A stretch of DNA of 64,000 nucleotides. Source: Winogradskyella tangerina (lineage in GTDB: Bacteria; Bacteroidota; Bacteroidia; Flavobacteriales; Flavobacteriaceae). Position numbers and translations under genes: made by a program. The notes beneath the pieces were generated by a model that was not told where the DNA came from, ran no database searches, and saw only the letters and a program-made list of their open reading frames with translations. Shown here piece by piece: positions 2,755-16,261 of this stretch; position 1 is the first letter of the stretch; every line of letters starts with the position of its first letter. The stretch covers positions 124,001-188,000 of the forward strand of contig NZ_QERF01000010.1 of assembly GCF_003260205.1 (NCBI RefSeq), read 5' to 3'.

Positions 2755-4008
2755 TTAAATATCAAATGCTGCTTTGACCTTATCTACATAGTCTAATTTT
2801 TCCCAAGTAAATAGCTCTACGTCGATTGTTTTAGAATCCCCATTAGGCTGTTCAAAGGTTTTAGAAACTACTTCGTTTTGTCTGCCCATATGCCCATATG
2901 CGGCTGTTTCACTATATATAGGTTGACGTAATTTTAAACGACTTTCGATTGCTGCAGGTCGCATATCAAAAACTTCTGAGACTTTTTCTGCAATCTCTCC
3001 ATCGGTAATATTGAATGGGCATGTTCCATAGGTGTCTATAAAGATTCCCATAGGTTCTACTACGCCAATTGCATAAGATACCTGTACCAAAATTTCCTCA
3101 CAAAGGCCAGCGGCAACAAGATTTTTTGCAATATGCCTAGTAGCATAAGCTGCACTACGGTCTACCTTACTTGGATCTTTCCCAGAGAATGCTCCACCAC
3201 CGTGAGCGCCTTTTCCACCATAAGTATCTACAATGATCTTTCGTCCTGTGAGCCCAGTATCGCCGTGAGGACCGCCAATAACAAATTTTCCGGTAGGATT
3301 AATATGATAGGTAATATCTTCAGTAAATAATGGCTTAATATGTTCTGGAACTTTGGCCACTACACGCGGAATTAAAATTTCTATGATGTCTTTTCTGATT
3401 TTGTCTAACATAGCTTCATCAGAATCAAAGTCATCATGTTGTGTCGATACCACAATGGCATCAATACGCTGAGGTGTATTGTCATCACTATACTCAATTG
3501 TAACCTGACTTTTAGAATCTGGCCTTAAGTAAGTAATGTCCTTATTTTCTCGTCGTAAAGCAGCTAATTCTTTTAAGATAAGATGTGAAATATCTAGTGC
3601 TAACGGCATATAGTTGTCCGTTTCATTAGTGGCATAACCAAACATCATACCTTGATCACCAGCACCTTGTTCTTCTTTCGAAGCTCTGTCCACACCGCGA
3701 TTAATGTCTTCAGATTGTTCGTGTATTGCTGAGAATACACCACAAGAATTACCGTCAAACATATACTCTCCTTTGGTGTAACCAATCTTGTTGATGGTAT
3801 CTCTTGCTATTTTCTGAACATCTAAATAGGTATTAGATTTCACCTCGCCAGCCAAAACTACTTGACCAGTAGTAACCAACGTTTCGCAAGCCACTTTAGA
3901 TTCTGGATCAAAGGCTAAAAAATTATCAATTAAGGCATCACTAATCTGATCTGCAACTTTATCTGGATGCCCCTCAGAAACACTTTCAGACGTAAATAAA
4001 TATGGCAT
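2755..4008 (-). CDS. metK: S-adenosylmethionine synthetase
   Basis: 417 residues; makes S-adenosylmethionine from methionine and ATP in the cytoplasm. Diagnostic segments are visible: [13 protein letters not shown] at 13-25 (catalytic His14 and Asp16), [12 protein letters not shown] near 120, and [13 protein letters not shown] followed by [16 protein letters not shown], the phosphate-loop signature of the family. The length is slightly above the bacterial norm of about 385-400, with the extra residues distributed in the middle (the segment around 185-230). It is transcribed divergently from the SAM-riboswitch-controlled metH-metF genes, so the two arms of the SAM cycle share one intergenic region. 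There is no S-box on the metK side. Confidence 0.97.
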
Positions 4009-4132
4009 AAATCCTGTATTTTATAATTTAATTTGAAAGATTGCTGAGTCGCTAGAGAAGTTAATTACTTACTGCTTTAGCATTTTTTTATAAGGTTGCA
4101 ATCAGACAAATTTTTCCTTGTTAAAACGAAGG

Positions 4133-4140
4133 CAAAAGTA
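4133..4140 (-). promoter_or_regulatory. Candidate -7 element for metK
   Basis: The minus strand reads TACTTTTG, a perfect match to the Bacteroidetes -7 consensus TAnnTTTG. It lies about 125 bases before the metK start, giving a long leader. A TTG lies about 23 bases further upstream (4164-4166), near the usual -33 position. Confidence 0.45.
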
Positions 4141-4250
4141 GAAAATTTAATTGAAATGCATATCAATTTTAGATTTTTATGAATAAATTAGGTTTTTAGG
4201 TCTTTGTATTAGATATTTGTCAGCCTAAAGTTCAGTTTATTTATTGAAAT

Positions 4251-4348
4251 GTTATCAAGAAAGGTGGAGGGAATAGACCCTTTGATACCTTGGCAACCCT
4301 TATACGTAAGAAGGTGCTAAATTCTACTGTTTTTACAGAACAGATAAC
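4251..4348 (+). ncRNA. SAM-I (S-box) riboswitch aptamer upstream of metH-metF
   Basis: The conserved S-box core is readable in order: GTTATC (P1 5' strand, 4251-4256), AAGAAAGGTGGAGGGA (4257-4272), GACCC then TTGATACCTTGGCAACC (to 4298), AAGGTGCTAAATTCTAC (4310-4326), and GATAAC (P1 3' strand, 4343-4348) pairing with GTTATC. The aptamer binds S-adenosylmethionine and normally represses methionine genes when SAM is plentiful. It precedes metH, metH2 and metF, which re-make methionine. No intrinsic terminator with a U-run follows, so control is probably on translation (see the adjoining hairpin). Confidence 0.93.
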
Positions 4349-4367
4349 GGAAACTAAATCTTCATTT

Positions 4368-4397: not shown

Positions 4398-5402
4398 ATG
4401 CCAAATAACATATCAACAGAATTACAAAAACGAATCCTTGTGCTCGACGGTGCAATGGGTACAATGTTACAAGCTTATAATTTTACCGAAGCTGATTTTC
4501 GAGGTGAGCGGTTTAAAGATTATCCAACCCCATTAAAAGGGAATAATGACCTGCTCTCAATAACGCAACCTCAAGCTATCGCTGAAGTACATGCCAAATA
4601 TTTTGAAGCAGGTGCCGATATTGTAGAAACGAATACATTTTCAGGTACTACAATTGCAATGGCCGATTACAATATGGAGGATTTGGTTTATGAACTGAAC
4701 TTTGAATCTGCAAAAATTGCACGCCAGGTGGCTGATGAATTTACTGCAAAGAATCCTGAAAAACCACGATTTGTAGCGGGTAGTATAGGCCCAACTAACA
4801 GAACAGCAAGTCTGTCGCCAGATGTGAATAGACCAGAATATAGAGCTATTACATTTAACGAATTACGAATAGCTTACAAGCAACAGGTTGAGGCGCTGAT
4901 TGATGGTGGAGCTGATGTATTATTGGTTGAAACTGTTTTCGATACACTTAATGCTAAAGCCGCATTATTTGCTATTGAGGAAGTAAAAGAAGAACGTCAA
5001 ATAGATATTCCAATAATGGTATCTGGTACAATTACTGACGCTTCTGGAAGAACATTGTCTGGACAAACAGTTGAAGCTTTTCTCACTTCAATTTCGCATA
5101 TTCCACTAATGAGTGTAGGTTTTAATTGTGCCTTAGGTGCTAAACAATTGAAGCCATACTTACAGCGACTTTCTAACGAAACAGAATTTTACACATCGGC
5201 TCATCCCAATGCAGGATTACCAAATGCTTTTGGAGAATATGATGAAAGTCCTGAGGAAATGCAAGCCCATATTGAAGGGTATCTCAAAGATGGTTTGGTA
5301 AACATCATAGGCGGATGCTGTGGTACGACACCAGACCATATTAAAGCGATTGCAGATGCTGCCCAAAAATACCAACCAAGATTAATTCAAGAAATTGCCT
5401 AA
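4398..5402 (+). CDS. metH: Methionine synthase, homocysteine-binding half (split MetH N-terminal domain)
   Basis: 334 residues: the homocysteine S-methyltransferase barrel only. It opens with [14 protein letters not shown] and ends with the zinc site [11 protein letters not shown] (Cys307, Cys308), with the third cysteine in [11 protein letters not shown] near 241. In most bacteria this barrel is the first domain of one 1,200-residue MetH; here the gene stops after it and the folate, B12 and reactivation domains are encoded by the next gene. Stop and start overlap (TAATG), implying coupled translation in near equal amounts. It is controlled by the SAM-I riboswitch directly upstream. The split arrangement is common in Bacteroidetes. 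Confidence 0.95.
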
Positions 5403-8083
5403 TGCCAGAAGTTGATTGTAAGAAATATTTAACCCTTTCGGGACTAGAACCTCTTGTTGTTACACCCGAGAGCAATTTTATAAATGTAGGTGAACGAACT
5501 AACGTTACCGGATCGCGAAAGTTTCTTCGACTGATAAAAGAAGAAAAATTCAATGAAGCTTTAGATGTGGCTAGAGATCAGGTCGAAGGAGGAGCACAAA
5601 TCTTGGATGTGAATATGGATGAAGGAATGCTTGATGGTGTTGAAGCCATGACGACCTTCCTAAATCTTATCGCCTCAGAGCCAGATATTGCGCGTATTCC
5701 TATAATGATAGATAGTTCTAAATGGGAAATCATAGAAGCAGGTCTTCAAGTGGTTCAAGGGAAATGTGTGGTTAATTCCATTAGTCTCAAAGAAGGGGAG
5801 GAAGAATTTAAGCGTCAGGCAAAATTAATTAAGCGTTATGGCGCCGCTGTTATCGTCATGGCCTTTGATGAAAAAGGTCAGGCAGATAATTACGAACGCA
5901 GAATTGAAATATGCGAGCGTTCTTACAATATTTTGGTGAATGAGGTGAAATTTGCACCTCAGGATATCATTTTTGATCCTAATATATTTCCTGTAGCAAC
6001 AGGAATGGATGAGCACAGAAGAAATGCACTCGATTTCTTCGAAGCTACTAAATGGATTCGCGAAAACTTGCCATATGCCAATGTATCAGGTGGTGTGAGT
6101 AATGTTTCATTTTCCTTCCGTGGGAATAATGTTGTACGTGAGGCTATGCATTCGTCCTTCTTATTTCATGCCATAAAAAATGGAATGAATTTAGGTATCG
6201 TTAATCCAACTATGCTTGAAGTCTATGATGAAATCGATAAGGAACTCCTAGAGCATGTTGAGGATGTGTTATTTGACAGACGCGATGATGCTACCGAGCG
6301 CTTATTAGATTTTGCAGAATCCGTAAAGGGTCAGAAAAAAACACAAGAAACAGCCACTCTCGAATGGCGAAATCAGCCGCTTCAAGACCGAATAACTCAT
6401 GCCTTAGTTAAGGGTATTGATGCATTTATTAACGAAGATGTTGAAGAAGCAAGGTTGCAAGCTACCAAACCAATTGAAGTCATTGAAGGACCATTGATGA
6501 TTGGTATGAACGTTGTAGGCGATCTATTTGGAAGTGGTAAGATGTTTCTTCCTCAGGTGGTGAAGTCTGCTCGAGTGATGAAAAAAGCAGTCGCCTATTT
6601 GCAACCCTTTATTGAGGCCGAAAAAGATGGTAAGCAAGCCTTTGCTGGTAAGATATTAATGGCAACTGTTAAAGGTGATGTTCACGACATAGGTAAAAAT
6701 ATTGTAAGTGTCGTTTTAGGTTGTAACAACTATGAAATTGTTGATCTGGGTGTGATGGTACCACCCGAAAAGATCATAGAAACTGCTAAGGCAGAAAATG
6801 TAGATATTATTGGCTTAAGCGGACTCATAACGCCTTCATTAGATGAAATGGTGTACGTGTCTAAAGCCATGGAAAAAGAAAACTTAAATATTCCTCTTAT
6901 TATTGGTGGGGCAACAACATCGAGAGCGCATTCTGCAGTAAAGATTGCGCCTCATTACAGCAATACTGTAGTTCATATTAATGATGCTTCAAGAGCAGTA
7001 ACGGTTGTTGGAAACTTACTTCAGAAAGACAATCAAGTTTATAAGGATCAGATTAGAGATGAATATGATCAATTCAGAGAACAATTCTTAAAACGCGGGA
7101 AAAAGAAGGAATATCTTCCGCTCGCCGAAGCGCGAAAGAACAAATTCAAAATTGATTGGGAAACTACAGAGATCATTGCACCTGAGCAACTAGGTATTCA
7201 TGTTCTGGAAGATTTTGATATTACAAAGCTTGAAGCTTATATCGATTGGTCTCCGTTTTTCAGAAGTTGGGATCTTCATGGTAGATACCCAAATATCCTT
7301 AAGGATGAAATTGTTGGTGAGCAGGCTACAGAATTATTCGATGATGCTCAGGAAATGTTGAAGCGCATTTTTGATGATCGCCTATTGAAGGCTAAAGCCA
7401 TTTTTGGATTGTTCCCTGCAAATACAATAGATGATGACGACATTGAAATTGAACTAAACGGAACCACAAAAAAGTTCTTAACCCTTCGTCAACAATCAAA
7501 GAAAGCACAGGGCAAACCAAATATAGCATTGGCAGATTTTGTTGCTCCTAAATCGACTGGAAAGCAAGATTATCTGGGCTGTTTTTGTGTTACCACCGGA
7601 TTTGGTACTCAAGAAATTGCAGCGCAATATGAGAAGGACAACGACGACTATAATGCCATAATGATCAAAGCGCTAGCAGACCGTTTAGCAGAAGCATTTG
7701 CAGAATATCTTCACAAGGAAGTCCGAACTAACTATTGGAATTATGCTAAAAATGAGGAGCTTTCTAATGAAGAGTTGATCAAAGAAGCCTATAAAGGAAT
7801 CAGACCTGCACCAGGCTATCCTGCATGTCCAGATCATTTAGAAAAAGAAACCATTTGGGATGTTTTAAAAGTTGAACAAACCATAGGTGTAAAATTAACC
7901 GATAACCTTGCCATGTGGCCGTCGGCAAGCGTTAGTGGTTATTATTTTGCAAATGCCGAAGCAAGATATTTTGGTTTAGGAAAAATAACAGACGATCAAG
8001 TTAAAGATTATAGTGAACGAAGAGAAATCACTTTAGAAGAGGCACAAAAATGGCTTAACCCAAACATTGTAAACGAAGCATGA
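5402..8083 (+). CDS. metH2: Methionine synthase, folate/cobalamin/activation half (split MetH C-terminal domains)
   Basis: 893 residues. Domain order: pterin-binding domain from about 25 ([15 protein letters not shown]), B12 cap near 330-400, cobalamin-binding domain with DVHDIGKNI at 426-434 (His428 would be the axial cobalt ligand) and [13 protein letters not shown], then the SAM-dependent reactivation domain with [12 protein letters not shown] near 800. Together with the preceding homocysteine barrel it makes a complete cobalamin-dependent methionine synthase that transfers the methyl group of 5-methyl-tetrahydrofolate to homocysteine. The start overlaps the previous stop, and its own stop overlaps the metF start (ATGA). 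Confidence 0.96.
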
Positions 8084-12016: not shown

Positions 12017-12120
12017 TATCAAGAAAGTTTAGTCAAAAATAAGTAATATATAATAGGGCTCAATGTTTATTATCAAATCTTTAAAACTAAGGTCAATTGC
12101 TAAAAAAGCCGAGTTAACAA

Positions 12121-12151
12121 TTTTGAATTGTAAAAATATTAACTACATTAG
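12121..12151 (+). promoter_or_regulatory. Candidate promoter of the aromatic amino acid operon
   Basis: TTTTG (12121-12125) and TACATTAG (12144-12151, one mismatch to TAnnTTTG) are 18 bases apart, close to the Bacteroidetes -33/-7 spacing. The predicted start of transcription is just before the leader peptide ATG at 12169. Confidence 0.4.
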
Positions 12152-12168
12152 CCACTTAATTAATAAGA

Positions 12169-12219
12169 ATGAATATATCTAAAACATATTATAACTGGTT
12201 TTATTTCTTTTTTAAGTAA
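12169..12219 (+). CDS. Aromatic leader peptide (attenuator), MNISKTYYNWFYFFFK
   Basis: A 16-codon frame ATG to TAA encodes MNISKTYYNWFYFFFK: eight of nine residues from 7 to 15 are Tyr, Trp or Phe. It precedes pheA, an aminotransferase, tyrA and DAHP synthase/chorismate mutase, the enzymes that make those amino acids. A run of codons for the pathway's end products before a terminator is the classic design of a ribosome-mediated attenuator: scarce charged tRNA stalls the ribosome and lets transcription continue. The frame is too short to be found by length alone; the composition and position carry the case. Confidence 0.85.
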   Translation: MNISKTYYNWFYFFFK

Positions 12220-12224
12220 AGGAA

Positions 12225-12288
12225 CGAGGCTGAGTATGTTTTATTTAAATATAATTTATAAAAGTCTCGATTAAGTCGAGACTTTTTT
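12225..12288 (+). terminator. Attenuator: terminator with competing antiterminator before pheA
   Basis: AAAAGTCTCGA (12260-12270) and TCGAGACTTTT (12276-12286) form an 11-bp stem with loop TTAAG and a T-run (12283-12288), ending three bases before the pheA ATG. CGAGGCT (12225-12231) can instead pair with AGTCTCG (12263-12269; seven pairs, one G-U), breaking the terminator. A ribosome halted on the aromatic codons (12187-12213) would leave the first of these strands free, at least when halted on the earlier codons; one at the stop codon (12217-12219) would cover it. The logic is inferred from complementarity. Confidence 0.75.
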
Positions 12289-12291
12289 ATT

Positions 12292-13119
12292 ATGACAAAA
12301 CCAATAGCTATACAAGGTATAAAAGGCTCATTTCATCATGAGGTGGCACAGCAATACTTCAATATGAAGACTGAAGTGGTAGAATGCATGTCTTTTGATA
12401 GTGCTGTGGACAGTCTCATTAATGGCGATACAGATAATATCGTTATGGCTTTGGAAAATTCTATTGCTGGGTCCATTATACCTAACTATGCGCTCATCGA
12501 TAATCATAACTTACACATTGTTGGAGAATACTATTTAGAAATTGAGCACAATTTATTAGCCCTGAAAGGTGAAACCATCGACTCGATTAAAGAAGTGCAT
12601 TCGCACCCAATGGCCTTATTGCAGTGTAAGGTGTTTTTGAAAGATTATCCACATATAAAGTTGGTTGAGGCGAAGGATACAGCCGATGTTGCGAAGCAAA
12701 TTTCAGATGGCAATATTGAAGGAATAGCTGCCATCGCAAGCAAAAATGCGGCTCAGTTATATGGACTTGAAATTTTGGCTGAAGGTATTCAAACGATAAA
12801 ACACAATGAAACGCGCTTTGTAATTGTAAGACGACAAAACCATATTTTTGAAGAAAGTGAAGTCAATAAAGCATCCTTAAAATTTCAATTAGATCACAAG
12901 CGCGGTAGTTTAGCTACGATCTTAAATGTTATGAGTGATTGTAAACTCAACCTTACTAAAATTCAGTCATTACCAAAAATAGAAACACCGTGGAAGTATG
13001 CTTTCTTTGTAGATGTTACCTTTGAAGACTATAAAGACTACGCCAAAGCGAATTCAATAATGCAGCTCATGGCAGAAAATTTCAAGGTATTAGGCGAATA
13101 TAAAAATGCAAGATTATGA
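12292..13119 (+). CDS. pheA: Prephenate dehydratase
   Basis: 275 residues; converts prephenate to phenylpyruvate for phenylalanine. Residues 1-180 form the dehydratase domain (AIQGIKGSFHHEVAQQYF, ALENSIAGSI, NETRFVIV with the catalytic Thr-Arg-Phe), and 190-275 an ACT domain (SLATILNVMSDCKLNLTKIQSLP) that usually binds phenylalanine for feedback inhibition. There is no chorismate mutase domain here; it is supplied by the fusion at the end of the operon. It is the first structural gene behind the attenuator and overlaps the next gene by ATGA. Confidence 0.95.
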   Translation: MTKPIAIQGIKGSFHHEVAQQYFNMKTEVVECMSFDSAVDSLINGDTDNIVMALENSIAGSIIPNYALIDNHNLHIVGEYYLEIEHNLLALKGETIDSIKEVHSHPMALLQCKVFLKDYPHIKLVEAKDTADVAKQISDGNIEGIAAIASKNAAQLYGLEILAEGIQTIKHNETRFVIVRRQNHIFEESEVNKASLKFQLDHKRGSLATILNVMSDCKLNLTKIQSLPKIETPWKYAFFVDVTFEDYKDYAKANSIMQLMAENFKVLGEYKNARL

Positions 13120-14258
13120 TTGAGGTAGCTGATCGATTAAAACATGTTGAAGAATACTATTTCTCTAAGAAATTAAGGGAAGTTGCATTCTTAAAATCAC
13201 AGGGAAAACCAATTATTAATCTGGGTATTGGTAGCCCTGATCTTGAACCACCTTTCAAAGCATCAATGCTTCTGAAAGACAGTTTAGACGAAGAAGGAGC
13301 TCATAAATATCAGAGTTATCAAGGGCTTCCTGAACTTCGAGATGAGATCGCTAATTTCTATAAATCGCGCTATAAGGTAAGTATTAGTGGGCAAACAGAA
13401 GTTTTGCCTTTGCTAGGAAGTAAGGAAGGTATAATGCATATTTCAATGGCTTTTTTGAATAAAGGTGATGAGGTGTTAGTTCCAAATCCTGGCTATCCAA
13501 CTTATGCCGCTGTAACTAAACTTTTGGAGGCTAAACCGGTACTTTATGATCTTACAGAAGAGAATCATTGGTTGCCAGATTTTATAGCACTTGAACGTTT
13601 AGACCTTAGTAAAGTAAAAATCATGTGGATCAATTATCCGCATATGCCAACTGGCGCAAATGCACCGAATAAATTTTACGATGAAGTAATTGCTTTTGGG
13701 AAACGCCATAATATTCTCATTGTTAATGATAACCCATATAGCTTCGTTTTGAATGAAAAACCAATCAGCATTATGCGTTATAACAATGCTAAATCGGTGT
13801 GCTTAGAATTGAATTCGTTTAGTAAAACATTCAATATGGCCGGATGGCGCGTTGGAATGGTGGTAGGAAGTTACGAACATCTTTCGGCAGTTTTAAAGGT
13901 GAAGAGCAATATGGATTCCGGGATGTTTTACGGCGTGCAGAAAGGTGCCATTGAAGCTTTAAAATGTTCAGACATGTGGTTTGTAAGTTTGAACAGTGTT
14001 TACGAACAAAGACGTGAGCTTATTTGGAAATTGGCTGAAGCATTAAACTGCACATACGATGAATATGCCACCGGAATGTTTGTTTGGGCAAAATTACCAC
14101 CCCATATAAAATCAGAAGAATTTTCGGATCTCGTACTGAAAGAGCATTCTATTTTTATTACACCTGGAACAGTTTTTGGCACTAACGGTGAAGGCTACGT
14201 ACGATTTTCATTATGTGCACCAGAAAAGATAATTGAAGAGGCAATAGCAAGAGTTTAG
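13116..14258 (+). CDS. PLP aminotransferase, aspartate aminotransferase fold I (aromatic operon)
   Basis: 380 residues. PLP-binding features: NLGIGSPDLEPP, PNPGYPTYAA, WINYPHMPTGA and LNSFSKTFNMAGWRVG, whose Lys binds the cofactor. Such enzymes transaminate keto acids; lying between pheA and tyrA with 4-base overlap to pheA, it probably converts phenylpyruvate and 4-hydroxyphenylpyruvate to phenylalanine and tyrosine, or prephenate to arogenate. The motifs alone do not choose between these, nor exclude a broader amino acid aminotransferase. Confidence 0.85.
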   Translation: MIEVADRLKHVEEYYFSKKLREVAFLKSQGKPIINLGIGSPDLEPPFKASMLLKDSLDEEGAHKYQSYQGLPELRDEIANFYKSRYKVSISGQTEVLPLLGSKEGIMHISMAFLNKGDEVLVPNPGYPTYAAVTKLLEAKPVLYDLTEENHWLPDFIALERLDLSKVKIMWINYPHMPTGANAPNKFYDEVIAFGKRHNILIVNDNPYSFVLNEKPISIMRYNNAKSVCLELNSFSKTFNMAGWRVGMVVGSYEHLSAVLKVKSNMDSGMFYGVQKGAIEALKCSDMWFVSLNSVYEQRRELIWKLAEALNCTYDEYATGMFVWAKLPPHIKSEEFSDLVLKEHSIFITPGTVFGTNGEGYVRFSLCAPEKIIEEAIARV

Positions 14259-14263
14259 CGAAT

Positions 14264-15115
14264 ATGGAGAATATTTTTGTCATTGGAGTAGGATTAATTG
14301 GAGGGAGTTTTGCATTAGATATTAAAGCGCAAAATTCGGATGGTATTATCTACGGAATCGATAATAACGAAGACCATTTAAATGAGGCGCTCGACTTAAA
14401 GATCATTGATAAAAAAGCAGATTTTGAAGACTTAGATAAAGCGGATTTAGTGATCATCGCTATTCCTGTGGATGCAACCCTTCAGGTTTTGCCAAAAGTA
14501 TTGGATCAGGTTTCTGACAGTGCCATTGTTTTTGATGCTGGTTCCACCAAAGAAGACATCTGCCTTAAGGTAAAACACCACCCTAAGCGTCGTAATTTCC
14601 TAGCGGCACACCCAATAGCTGGTACGGAGTACTCTGGGCCTAAAGCTGCATTGCATGGCCTCTACAAAAACAAAACAAATATTATATGTGAGGTTGAAGA
14701 AACAGCATTCAAACTTCAGGAGAAAGCATTGAAATTATTTTCAGATCTCGGAATGCGTATTCGCTATATGAACCCCAAAGCCCACGACAAACACATTGCT
14801 TACGTTTCGCACTTATCGCACATAAGCTCGTTTATGCTTGGTAAAACGGTGATTGAAAAAGAAAAGAACGAACGCGATATTTTCGATATGGCGGGCAGTG
14901 GTTTTGAAAGTACAGTACGTTTGGCAAAAAGTTCACCAGCCATGTGGACGCCTATTTTCGAACAGAATAAAACCAACGTAATTGAAACTTTAGACGAGTA
15001 CATCAGCAACCTTCAACATTTTAAACAACTAATGGAAAAAGGTGATTTTGAGGCCGTTTACAATGAAATGGAAACTACAAATCACATTAAAGATATATTG
15101 AACGGAATACAGTAA
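14264..15115 (+). CDS. tyrA: Prephenate dehydrogenase
   Basis: 283 residues; oxidatively decarboxylates prephenate to 4-hydroxyphenylpyruvate for tyrosine. The NAD(P) Rossmann motif GVGLIGGSFALD sits at residues 8-19, followed by VIIAIPVD, FDAGSTKED and LAAHPIAGTEYSGPKAA, the catalytic-His region of TyrA, and HDKHIAYVSHLSHISSFML. It lacks the C-terminal ACT domain of some TyrA proteins. It starts five bases after the aminotransferase stop and belongs to the attenuator-controlled operon. Confidence 0.93.
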   Translation: MENIFVIGVGLIGGSFALDIKAQNSDGIIYGIDNNEDHLNEALDLKIIDKKADFEDLDKADLVIIAIPVDATLQVLPKVLDQVSDSAIVFDAGSTKEDICLKVKHHPKRRNFLAAHPIAGTEYSGPKAALHGLYKNKTNIICEVEETAFKLQEKALKLFSDLGMRIRYMNPKAHDKHIAYVSHLSHISSFMLGKTVIEKEKNERDIFDMAGSGFESTVRLAKSSPAMWTPIFEQNKTNVIETLDEYISNLQHFKQLMEKGDFEAVYNEMETTNHIKDILNGIQ

Positions 15116-15148: not shown

Positions 15149-16231
15149 ATGGAGAATAAAAAAGAATTGAGAAATTGGTTAGATGCTTTCAACTTAGAGC
15201 ATCCGTTGGTAATTGCCGGACCATGTAGTGCAGAAACCGAACAGCAAGTGCTTCATATAGCACACCAATTAAAAGATAGTGATGCCACAGTTTTTAGAGC
15301 AGGAATTTGGAAACCAAGAACCCGACCAGGAAATTTTGAAGGCGTTGGGGCACTTGGATTAAAGTGGCTTCAAAAGGCAAAAGAAGAAACCGGAATGTTG
15401 ATCACTACCGAAGTGGCCAACCCTAATCATGTTGAATTAGCACTGAAGCACGATGTCGATATCCTTTGGATCGGAGCAAGAACAACTGTAAGTCCATTTA
15501 TTGTTCAGGATATCGCAGATGCATTAAAAGGTACCGATAAACCTGTTTTGATCAAAAACCCAGTGAATCCCGATTTATCACTTTGGTTAGGAGCTGTTGA
15601 GCGGTTTTACACGGCAGATGTAAAAAATCTTGGTGTGATTCATAGAGGGTTTTCAACTTATGAAAAAACACGCTACAGAAACAATCCGGAGTGGCAATTA
15701 GCCGTAGATTTGCAAAGCCGTTTTCCAGATTTACCATTGATATTAGATCCTTCGCACATTGCAGGGCGACGTGATATTATTTTTGATCTGAGTCAGACAG
15801 CATTAGACCTTAACTACGATGGATTAATGATTGAAACACATCACGATCCTGATAATGCTTGGAGTGATGCCGCACAGCAAATTACACCAGATACTTTAAT
15901 TAAATACACTGAAGATCTACGTATTAGAAAAGAAGTAGGTGAGGCAGCAGAGTTTAAAAACAAGATCAACACATTGAGAACCAAGATCGATGTGATCGAT
16001 CACCAACTTATTGAAATATTAGGGAAACGAATGCAAGTCGTTGAAGACATTGGTAGCCTTAAGAAAAAGCACAACGTTGCAGTTTTACAGAATAAACGTT
16101 GGAATGAGATCTTAGGTAAAATGATCCTTGAAGGTGAAGAGAAAAATCTAAGTGAAGAGTTTATTCTAAGGATGTTTAAAGCGATTCACCAGGAATCGAT
16201 TAACCATCAGGAAGAAATTATTAATCATTAA
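15149..16231 (+). CDS. Bifunctional DAHP synthase / chorismate mutase
   Basis: 360 residues. Residues 1-265 are a type I-beta DAHP synthase (IAGPCSAETEQQ, FRAGIWKPRTRPGNFEG, DPSHIAGRRD), the first committed enzyme of the shikimate pathway. Residues 275-350 are a chorismate mutase domain (LRTKIDVIDHQLIEILGKRM, IGSLKKKHN). The fusion of the first enzyme with the chorismate branch enzyme is common in Bacteroidetes and may allow feedback inhibition through the mutase. It is last in the operon and is followed by a strong terminator. Confidence 0.93.
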   Translation: MENKKELRNWLDAFNLEHPLVIAGPCSAETEQQVLHIAHQLKDSDATVFRAGIWKPRTRPGNFEGVGALGLKWLQKAKEETGMLITTEVANPNHVELALKHDVDILWIGARTTVSPFIVQDIADALKGTDKPVLIKNPVNPDLSLWLGAVERFYTADVKNLGVIHRGFSTYEKTRYRNNPEWQLAVDLQSRFPDLPLILDPSHIAGRRDIIFDLSQTALDLNYDGLMIETHHDPDNAWSDAAQQITPDTLIKYTEDLRIRKEVGEAAEFKNKINTLRTKIDVIDHQLIEILGKRMQVVEDIGSLKKKHNVAVLQNKRWNEILGKMILEGEEKNLSEEFILRMFKAIHQESINHQEEIINH

Positions 16232-16233
16232 TA

Positions 16234-16261
16234 AAAAAGGCTCGCAACTGCGAGCCTTTTT
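16234..16261 (+). terminator. Terminator of the aromatic operon
   Basis: GGCTCGC (16239-16245) pairs with GCGAGCC (16250-16256), extended by A5/T5 flanks, with a four-base loop and a T-run. It lies three bases after the DAHP synthase/chorismate mutase stop. Confidence 0.9.

Follow-up and report, generated by a model that had tools for sequence, protein, structure and literature searches.

Our analysis indicates that the leader in front of pheA very probably attenuates transcription by a ribosome-mediated mechanism of the trp type. Judged from its DNA, this marine flavobacterium seems to control phenylalanine and tyrosine synthesis by having a ribosome sense, on a small, aromatic-rich peptide, whether these amino acids run short. 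The leader open reading frame (ORF), three RNA helices and their covariation, a characteristic spacing and the operon downstream are plain from the sequence and from its comparison with relatives, and together the peptide, the three helices and the spacing amount to a defined regulatory model from a phylum in which little is known of gene control.

A reading made from the sequence alone had already pointed to the leader frame, the terminator and the antiterminator strand; the helix between 12180-12190 and 12233-12243, the promoter and the DAHP synthase as the operon's fourth gene go beyond it. Throughout, "the window" means the whole 64,000-nucleotide stretch analyzed, and all coordinates are in its numbering. 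The parts of the leader are as follows.

12122 to 12151, plus strand: predicted promoter of the Bacteroidota sigma-A type, with TTTG (12122-12125), an 18-nt spacer and TACATTAG (12144-12151)
12169 to 12219, plus strand: leader ORF encoding MNISKTYYNWFYFFFK, with Tyr, Trp and Phe codons, based on translation, homologues and aromatic-preserving substitutions
12180 to 12190, plus strand: strand 1, within the leader ORF, pairing with strand 2b (protector helix), based on covariation and an 11-bp duplex in the window
12225 to 12231, plus strand: strand 2a, the antiterminator strand CGAGGCT, based on its pairing with 12263-12269, which is compensated in divergent leaders
12233 to 12243, plus strand: strand 2b, the partner of strand 1, based on covariation and the 11-bp duplex
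12260 to 12270, plus strand: strand 3, the terminator 5' arm AAAAGTCTCGA, of which AGTCTCG (12263-12269) also pairs with 2a
12276 to 12288, plus strand: strand 4, the terminator 3' arm TCGAGACTTTT (12276-12286) and a T-run to 12288

The leader ORF and its promoter

A frame of 16 codons runs from ATG at 12169 to TAA at 12217-12219, and its product, MNISKTYYNWFYFFFK, carries the run YYNWFYFFF at residues 7 to 15. The sequence-only reading had described this frame, with its eight aromatic residues in nine, and the description was borne out to the base at 12169-12219. Among 1,776 short ORFs of 8 to 45 codons on both strands of the 64 kb window, only the leader ORF has more than six aromatics per nine residues, with three others reaching six, and an ORF with eight in nine turned up in 2 of 5,000 dinucleotide shuffles of 12100-12291. 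The RNA of 12160-12291 folds at -31.3 kcal/mol (z = -4.30), and 0 of 200 shuffles were equally low.

The promoter box ends at 12151, 17 nt before the leader ATG. A TAnnTTnG box stands 5' of the leader in 60 of the 70 loci examined, 59 of them reading TACATTAG or TACTTTAG, and the nearest TTTG lies 18 nt upstream of it in 35 of these 70 loci and 13 nt upstream in 21. An excerpt of PMC9723704 gives the flavobacterial -7 consensus as TAnnTTTG.

Terminator, antiterminator and protector helices

The terminator, located between the leader ORF and the first gene, consists of 11 Watson-Crick pairs (12260-12270 with 12276-12286), to which terminator prediction adds a 12th pair, G-T, and it ends three bases before the pheA ATG at 12292. 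Strand 2a (CGAGGCT) pairs with AGTCTCG at 12263-12269 through 7 bp, one of them G-U. Both an 11-bp terminator three bases 5' of pheA and a seven-base strand at 12225-12231 able to pair with the terminator 5' arm had been proposed beforehand, and both hold in the sequence. The protector helix, 1:2b, joins the codons that open the aromatic run (12180-12190) to 12233-12243.

We examined covariation in two alignments. A2 comprises the window and 71 of the 80 named loci, with near-duplicates and two cut loci left out, and was aligned without structure; A3 was built from 91 sources, namely, the window, 25 of the 80 named loci, 15 of loci L111-L140, and loci L141-L190. In A2, the terminator (3:4) is paired in 96.1% of cells and the antiterminator (2a:3), which is nearly invariant there, in 92.1%, with 2 cells changed on both sides. 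The antiterminator is paired in 91.1% of the cells of A3, where both-side changes occur in 13 cells versus 2.0 in shuffles, a value that 0 of 500 shuffles reach, and where its outer pair 7 (12231:12263) is open in 44 of the 88 leaders counted. Sliding the antiterminator partner by -2 columns in A3 gave 38 both-side-changed cells versus 13, yet only 42% of the cells were then paired. All three strands are altered together in loci L186 (CGGAAT / GTTCCG / CGGAAC), L182, L176 and L184, and one genus (g147), probably Flavobacterium, has a different strand set in 12 of 12 loci, e.g., AGGATTGT / ACAATCCT or GGGATTGT / ACAATCCC.

For the protector helix, A3, which was fitted to this helix and thus favors it, shows 85.2% paired cells, both-side changes in 9 of 10 pairs, 83 both-side-changed cells versus 27.1 and a covariation score of 0.335 versus 0.172, with 0 of 500 shuffles reaching the last two values. 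The corresponding A2 figures are 63 cells versus 34.2 and a score of 0.266 versus 0.146, and two of five measures, pairs with both-side changes and pair types, are not above shuffles there (reached by 406 and 257 of 500). The leader combines an antiterminator that covaries and shares a strand with the terminator and a 1:2 protector helix that involves the leader coding region; the covariation supports the proposal that antiterminator and terminator pairing are mutually exclusive. As a separate observation, three loci (L165, L170 and L180) pair weakly at the antiterminator and L169, a near relative of L170, keeps the pairing; decay or an altered mechanism is possible in these three.

Covarying helices, together with DNA that is highly conserved within the genus as in an aptamer, would also suit a terminator governed by a metabolite aptamer or an RNA-binding protein, with the ORF being incidental. 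We consider this very unlikely, since across families the helix and loop sequences change wholesale whereas the codons stay aromatic, and since a riboswitch or T-box match in Rfam is absent at the leader. At gathering score, Rfam 15 has no family that matches the window leader or the relatives L111, L176, L186 and L190, and 12050-12320 gave no match at E values up to 5 except a low-scoring one to rimP on the minus strand. A riboswitch or T-box reading of the pheA leader thus found no support in Rfam and was rejected.

Aromatic codons in the leaders

The 134 leader contexts that we collected represent 124 distinct ORFs and 118 distinct peptides, the codons of which were aligned. At the core codons, 92 nearest-neighbor pairs held 47 single-base amino acid changes, after 28 multi-base codon differences had been set aside, and 38 of the 47 stay aromatic; the expectation from the substitution spectrum of the adjacent spacer is 23% (nominal p 5e-17, with non-independent pairs). 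That codon changes should track aromatic residues had been set beforehand as a check on the proposed attenuator, and they do. Core columns 16 and 17 are aromatic in 124 of 124 ORFs, and of the 121 entries in the Trp column, 96 are Trp and a further 20 are Phe or Tyr.

It had been suggested that one attenuator may read Tyr, Phe and Trp. Phe and Tyr codons are present in all 118 distinct peptides; as 18 of these peptides are without Trp, sensing of Trp is plausible but would come second. The only DAHP synthase found in the genome, being encoded in the operon, may explain why the leader has a Trp codon. The narrower idea that the Trp codon tracks DAHP synthase was rejected, as 10 Trp-less leaders among 19 operons also have DAHP synthase.

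TnaC-like arrest peptides conserve particular residues, especially near the C terminus. In a leader of this kind, a free aromatic amino acid would arrest the ribosome, and arrest rather than tRNA shortage would set the fold. The strong conservation of YYNWFYFFF within Winogradskyella would fit such a peptide, and Trp-sensing arrest peptides are known (PMC8429421, excerpt), but the pheA leaders do not keep the particular residues expected of an arrest peptide: Phe, Tyr and Trp interchange in the core, and length, C terminus and stop position all vary. Moreover, the geometry implies that arrest by a plentiful product at an aromatic codon would switch the biosynthetic operon on. Nascent-peptide arrest is, therefore, highly improbable as the mechanism here.

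Spacing and ribosome position

Read as a trp-type attenuator, the leader contains a ruler. From the start of the last aromatic codon to the GAG of 2a (or the aligned position), the distance is 15 nt in 117 of the 134 leaders and 12 to 18 nt in the others, and this spacing also holds in the ten leaders whose ORF lies in another frame relative to 2a. The stop codon lies +15, -9 or +6 nt from the GAG in 111 of 134 leaders and elsewhere in the rest.

According to toeprint data, a ribosome covers about 12 nt past the first A-site base. With a footprint of +11 to +13, 2a is free in 120 to 129 of the 134 leaders when the ribosome is on the last aromatic codon, and it is at least partly masked in 134 of 134 when the ribosome is at the stop. 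A footprint of +14 leaves 2a free at the last aromatic codon in only 3 of 134, and one of +9 or +10 leaves it free in all 134, yet a ribosome at the stop then masks it in just 106 or 108. It follows that the aromatic run ends at about the last position where a stall still opens the switch. At the general footprint value, a stalled ribosome would free 2a and a ribosome at the stop would mask it. It had been proposed that a ribosome at the leader stop codon would hide the antiterminator strand, and both the covariation and the fixed spacing support this.

Folding calculations give an antiterminator probability above 0.5 in 131 of 134 leaders when the ribosome occupies the last aromatic codon (0.9996 in the window), the exceptions being L165, L170 and L180, which form the antiterminator poorly. 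With the ribosome at the stop, the probability is zero, a value partly built in by masking 2a. With no ribosome, it is 0.04 in the window, yet above 0.5 in 72 of 134 leaders; the protector is thus not dominant everywhere, and the folding suggests that the fate of untranslated leaders may differ between species.

Spread of the leader among relatives

Of 80 named pheA loci, 68 have a leader that fits a Trp-containing pattern. Ten of the 12 loci outside the pattern are variants, such as YYNWNYFFY and YFGFYYFFF; L065 and L067 are cut by a contig end, and the tail of an aromatic frame remains visible in L065. In total, 78 of the 80 loci have a leader ORF with an aromatic run, which in L087 starts with GTG.

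A covariance model of 72 leaders (R1) was run over 397 family genomes. We retrieved 50 of the 57 matches listed between E 3.3e-14 and 3.0e-6, and all 50, a few of which duplicate named loci, lie 5' of pheA and have an aromatic leader. The R1 tally of 299 of 397 family genomes at E <= 0.01 includes noise and is not a count of true leaders, because weak matches occur in a search for second copies at E up to 1: ten of the 11 genomes searched have one match at 99 to 129 bits and all their other matches at 47.5 bits or less, and the best match of the eleventh (G115) reaches 52 bits.

A second model, R2, matched 23 of 246 order genomes and 13 of 247 class genomes at E <= 1e-4, counts that include family members; the loci followed up do not include G458 and G598, two of the matched genomes. 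Among the new loci (L241-L269), some of which repeat genomes already covered, 28 of 29 lie 5' of pheA and carry an aromatic leader, and L262 has no pheA in the stretch examined. The spread includes order families f2, f13 and f15 and class families f21, f30 and f55. Eighteen of the 20 R2 misses listed for the order belong to g147. When 20 genomes missed by R2 were searched with PheA, 16 proved to have pheA. In 14 of the 16 loci, among them all 12 from g147, an aromatic leader is present together with a terminator; the pheA loci L283 and L285 are without such a leader.

Choosing ORFs for aromatic content biases these tallies upward, the loci themselves having been found by PheA or RNA homology; besides Winogradskyella, six or more other families of the class retain the aromatic leader before pheA. 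Conservation of the leader frame in relatives, the other check set beforehand, was thus confirmed across the named loci, the model matches and the order and class loci.

One locus from another family of the order (G059, L253:1358-1640) has two aromatic leader ORFs in series 5' of pheA, each with its own terminator (MNNLVSTFRFFGFFFFRKEGAMS and MNQNTQQNFSFFGFFFFKWKSEAVD). Both leaders, which are outside the 118-peptide table, are Phe-rich and have no Tyr, and the pair is apparently a tandem attenuator.

Since the ORF and the terminator are both real, they could in principle represent a small hydrophobic protein gene with its own terminator, unrelated to pheA control. This is extremely unlikely: all leader loci examined sit just 5' of pheA, 2a persists in coding and noncoding positions alike and at a fixed distance from the last aromatic codon, a helix joins the ORF with 2b, and 10 of the 11 genomes searched show a single strong match of the element.

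The operon and other regulators in the genome

The proposed attenuator precedes four genes in the order pheA, aminotransferase, tyrA, DAHP synthase/chorismate mutase.

12292 to 13119, plus strand: pheA, prephenate dehydratase (PF00800)
13116 to 14258, plus strand: class I/II aminotransferase (PF00155), presumed aromatic, the substrate being taken from context
14264 to 15115, plus strand: tyrA, prephenate dehydrogenase (PF02153 and PF20463; NF006307 above cut-off)
15149 to 16231, plus strand: DAHP synthase-chorismate mutase fusion (PF00793 and PF01817)
16234 to 16261, plus strand: operon-ending terminator (terminator prediction)

For the aminotransferase, the best NCBIfam names are LL-diaminopimelate aminotransferase, below cut-offs. 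No further DAHP synthase was found in the genome: its other PF00793 match is KDO8P synthase, and class II (PF01474) has no match. The best named relatives of the window PheA are Winogradskyella records, with up to 91% identity, which makes a Winogradskyella origin of the window very probable. All four operon genes are present in 79 of the 80 named loci, L038 being a short contig, and DAHP synthase is present in all of 19 further loci. Three of these 19 (L227, L236 and L238) keep the aromatic leader, but their DAHP synthase gene comes immediately after pheA, and no aminotransferase or tyrA is recognizable within about 5 kb.

The window's genome also carries a leader, MKTIINNTWWWNFSNLCS, and a terminator 5' of trpE, where RF01692 (Bacteroid-trp) matches, and a His leader, MNNNQLHHHFQVIAQAR (HHH), and a terminator 5' of hisG (L218, minus strand), where Rfam has no match. 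Given the leaders before pheA, trpE and hisG, leader-peptide attenuation appears to govern three or more pathways in this genome. No leader was recognized in the upstream stretches read for thrA and the ilv genes of the same genome. At L288:1381-1800, two near-identical copies of GGAGGCACCACC...AAGCGCAAAACCCACTCAAACGAGTGGGTTTTTTGG lie 5' of ilv genes, each with a terminator-like hairpin and no Rfam match.

Elsewhere in the window, Rfam places two SAM riboswitch classes back to back at 4067-4350; the names of the neighboring genes were assigned by reading translations.

4125 to 4067, minus strand: SAM-II riboswitch (RF01726), before an S-adenosylmethionine synthetase-like gene (2755-4008)
4249 to 4350, plus strand: SAM-I riboswitch (RF00162), before split metH-like genes (4398-8083)

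A model for the probable pheA attenuator

We propose the following model for control of the operon. First, RNA polymerase presumably initiates a few bases past the end of the promoter box at 12151; as it moves through the leader ORF, a ribosome follows. We infer that the leader is translated, for which the aromatic-preserving substitutions give indirect support, that ribosome and polymerase are closely coupled at this point, and that the attenuator responds to Phe, Tyr or Trp starvation. When charged Phe-, Tyr- (or Trp-) tRNA is scarce, the ribosome would stall on an aromatic codon among codons 7 to 15, where it would cover strand 1 (12180-12190) and so block protector helix 1:2b. Strand 2a (12225-12231), left free, would pair with strand 3 (12263-12269) and prevent the terminator, and pheA, the aminotransferase gene, tyrA and the DAHP synthase gene would be transcribed. 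When the aromatic tRNAs are charged, the ribosome would instead reach the stop codon (12217) and mask about five of the seven bases of 2a, in which case strand 3 would pair with strand 4 and transcription would stop 5' of pheA. If the leader were left untranslated, helix 1:2b would favor termination in the window.

A wider version of this model is one that we put forward tentatively and lean somewhat against. In this scenario, the leader acts as an OR-gate for any aromatic amino acid across the whole class, wherein selection keeps some aromatic codon rather than a particular one at each core position, a shortage of any one of the Phe-, Tyr- and Trp-tRNAs would open a single switch that controls the Phe branch, the Tyr branch and the sole DAHP synthase, and the 15-nt ruler would imply close ribosome-polymerase coupling throughout Bacteroidia.

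Leader-peptide attenuation works only with a ribosome close behind RNA polymerase, and Bacteroidota are largely without Shine-Dalgarno sequences. With a ruler conserved across genera, the coupling of transcription to translation in Bacteroidota can be tested directly. The model further suggests a way in which one switch could serve three aromatic pools when there is only one DAHP synthase; E. coli has three DAHP synthase isoenzymes and several regulators.

Comparison with known systems

In the trp and pheA leaders of E. coli, a peptide rich in regulatory codons is combined with 1:2, 2:3 and 3:4 helices, and the position of the ribosome decides among them. Helix 1:2b of the window is the counterpart of helix 1:2 in the trp leader of E. 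coli. In enterobacteria, the trp leader and the pheA leader respond to a single amino acid each, while the window leader combines Phe and Tyr codons, in most cases with one Trp codon, and its operon comprises both branches plus DAHP synthase. Rfam has a leader family for enterobacterial pheA, and no match to it was listed in the Rfam searches of the window leader. One peptide reading several related amino acids of a shared pathway is known from the ilvGMEDA leader of Proteobacteria, which reads several branched-chain amino acids. The ilvB leader, as described in an excerpt of PMC10272879, is alike in this respect and differs in serving branched-chain amino acids and in belonging to Corynebacterium.

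Within Bacteroidota, Bacteroid-trp (RF01692) resembles the pheA leader as a leader-peptide cis-regulatory RNA before aromatic biosynthesis genes, but it reads Trp codons before trp genes, and its strands and peptide are unlike those of the pheA leader; the RF01692 model has no match in 12050-12320 at gathering score or at E up to 5. A 2004 study by Vitreschak reportedly mentions Bacteroidetes, and an earlier prediction of the pheA leader may exist in print. Bacteroid-trp is listed in PMC2864571, of which we consulted a part. For Flavobacterium psychrophilum, excerpts of a 2021 report (PMC9723704) describe structured 5' elements before pheA and hisG that are conserved in other Flavobacteriaceae genera and absent from Rfam, along with strong clues that attenuation by leader peptides acts upstream of amino acid operons. 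That pheA element, likened here by its description, is very probably the same as the window leader; section 19 of the report describes neither a leader peptide nor helices, names no mechanism for pheA and does not follow the element outside the family. In Bacteroides thetaiotaomicron, short ORFs in long 5' untranslated regions resemble attenuation leaders (PMC7366714, excerpt).

The sequence-only reading could not tell whether a regulator of this family is described for the lineage. Its kind is, through RF01692 and one sentence on the pheA 5' element in the consulted part of PMC9723704, whereas an Rfam family for the pheA leader is not; the literature searched yielded this leader only as an unnamed structured 5' element. 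The pheA leader could become an Rfam family beside Bacteroid-trp. In conclusion, leader-peptide attenuation itself is known, and what our analysis adds is the peptide, a model of three helices backed by covariation, the ruler and the occurrence of the leader outside the family.
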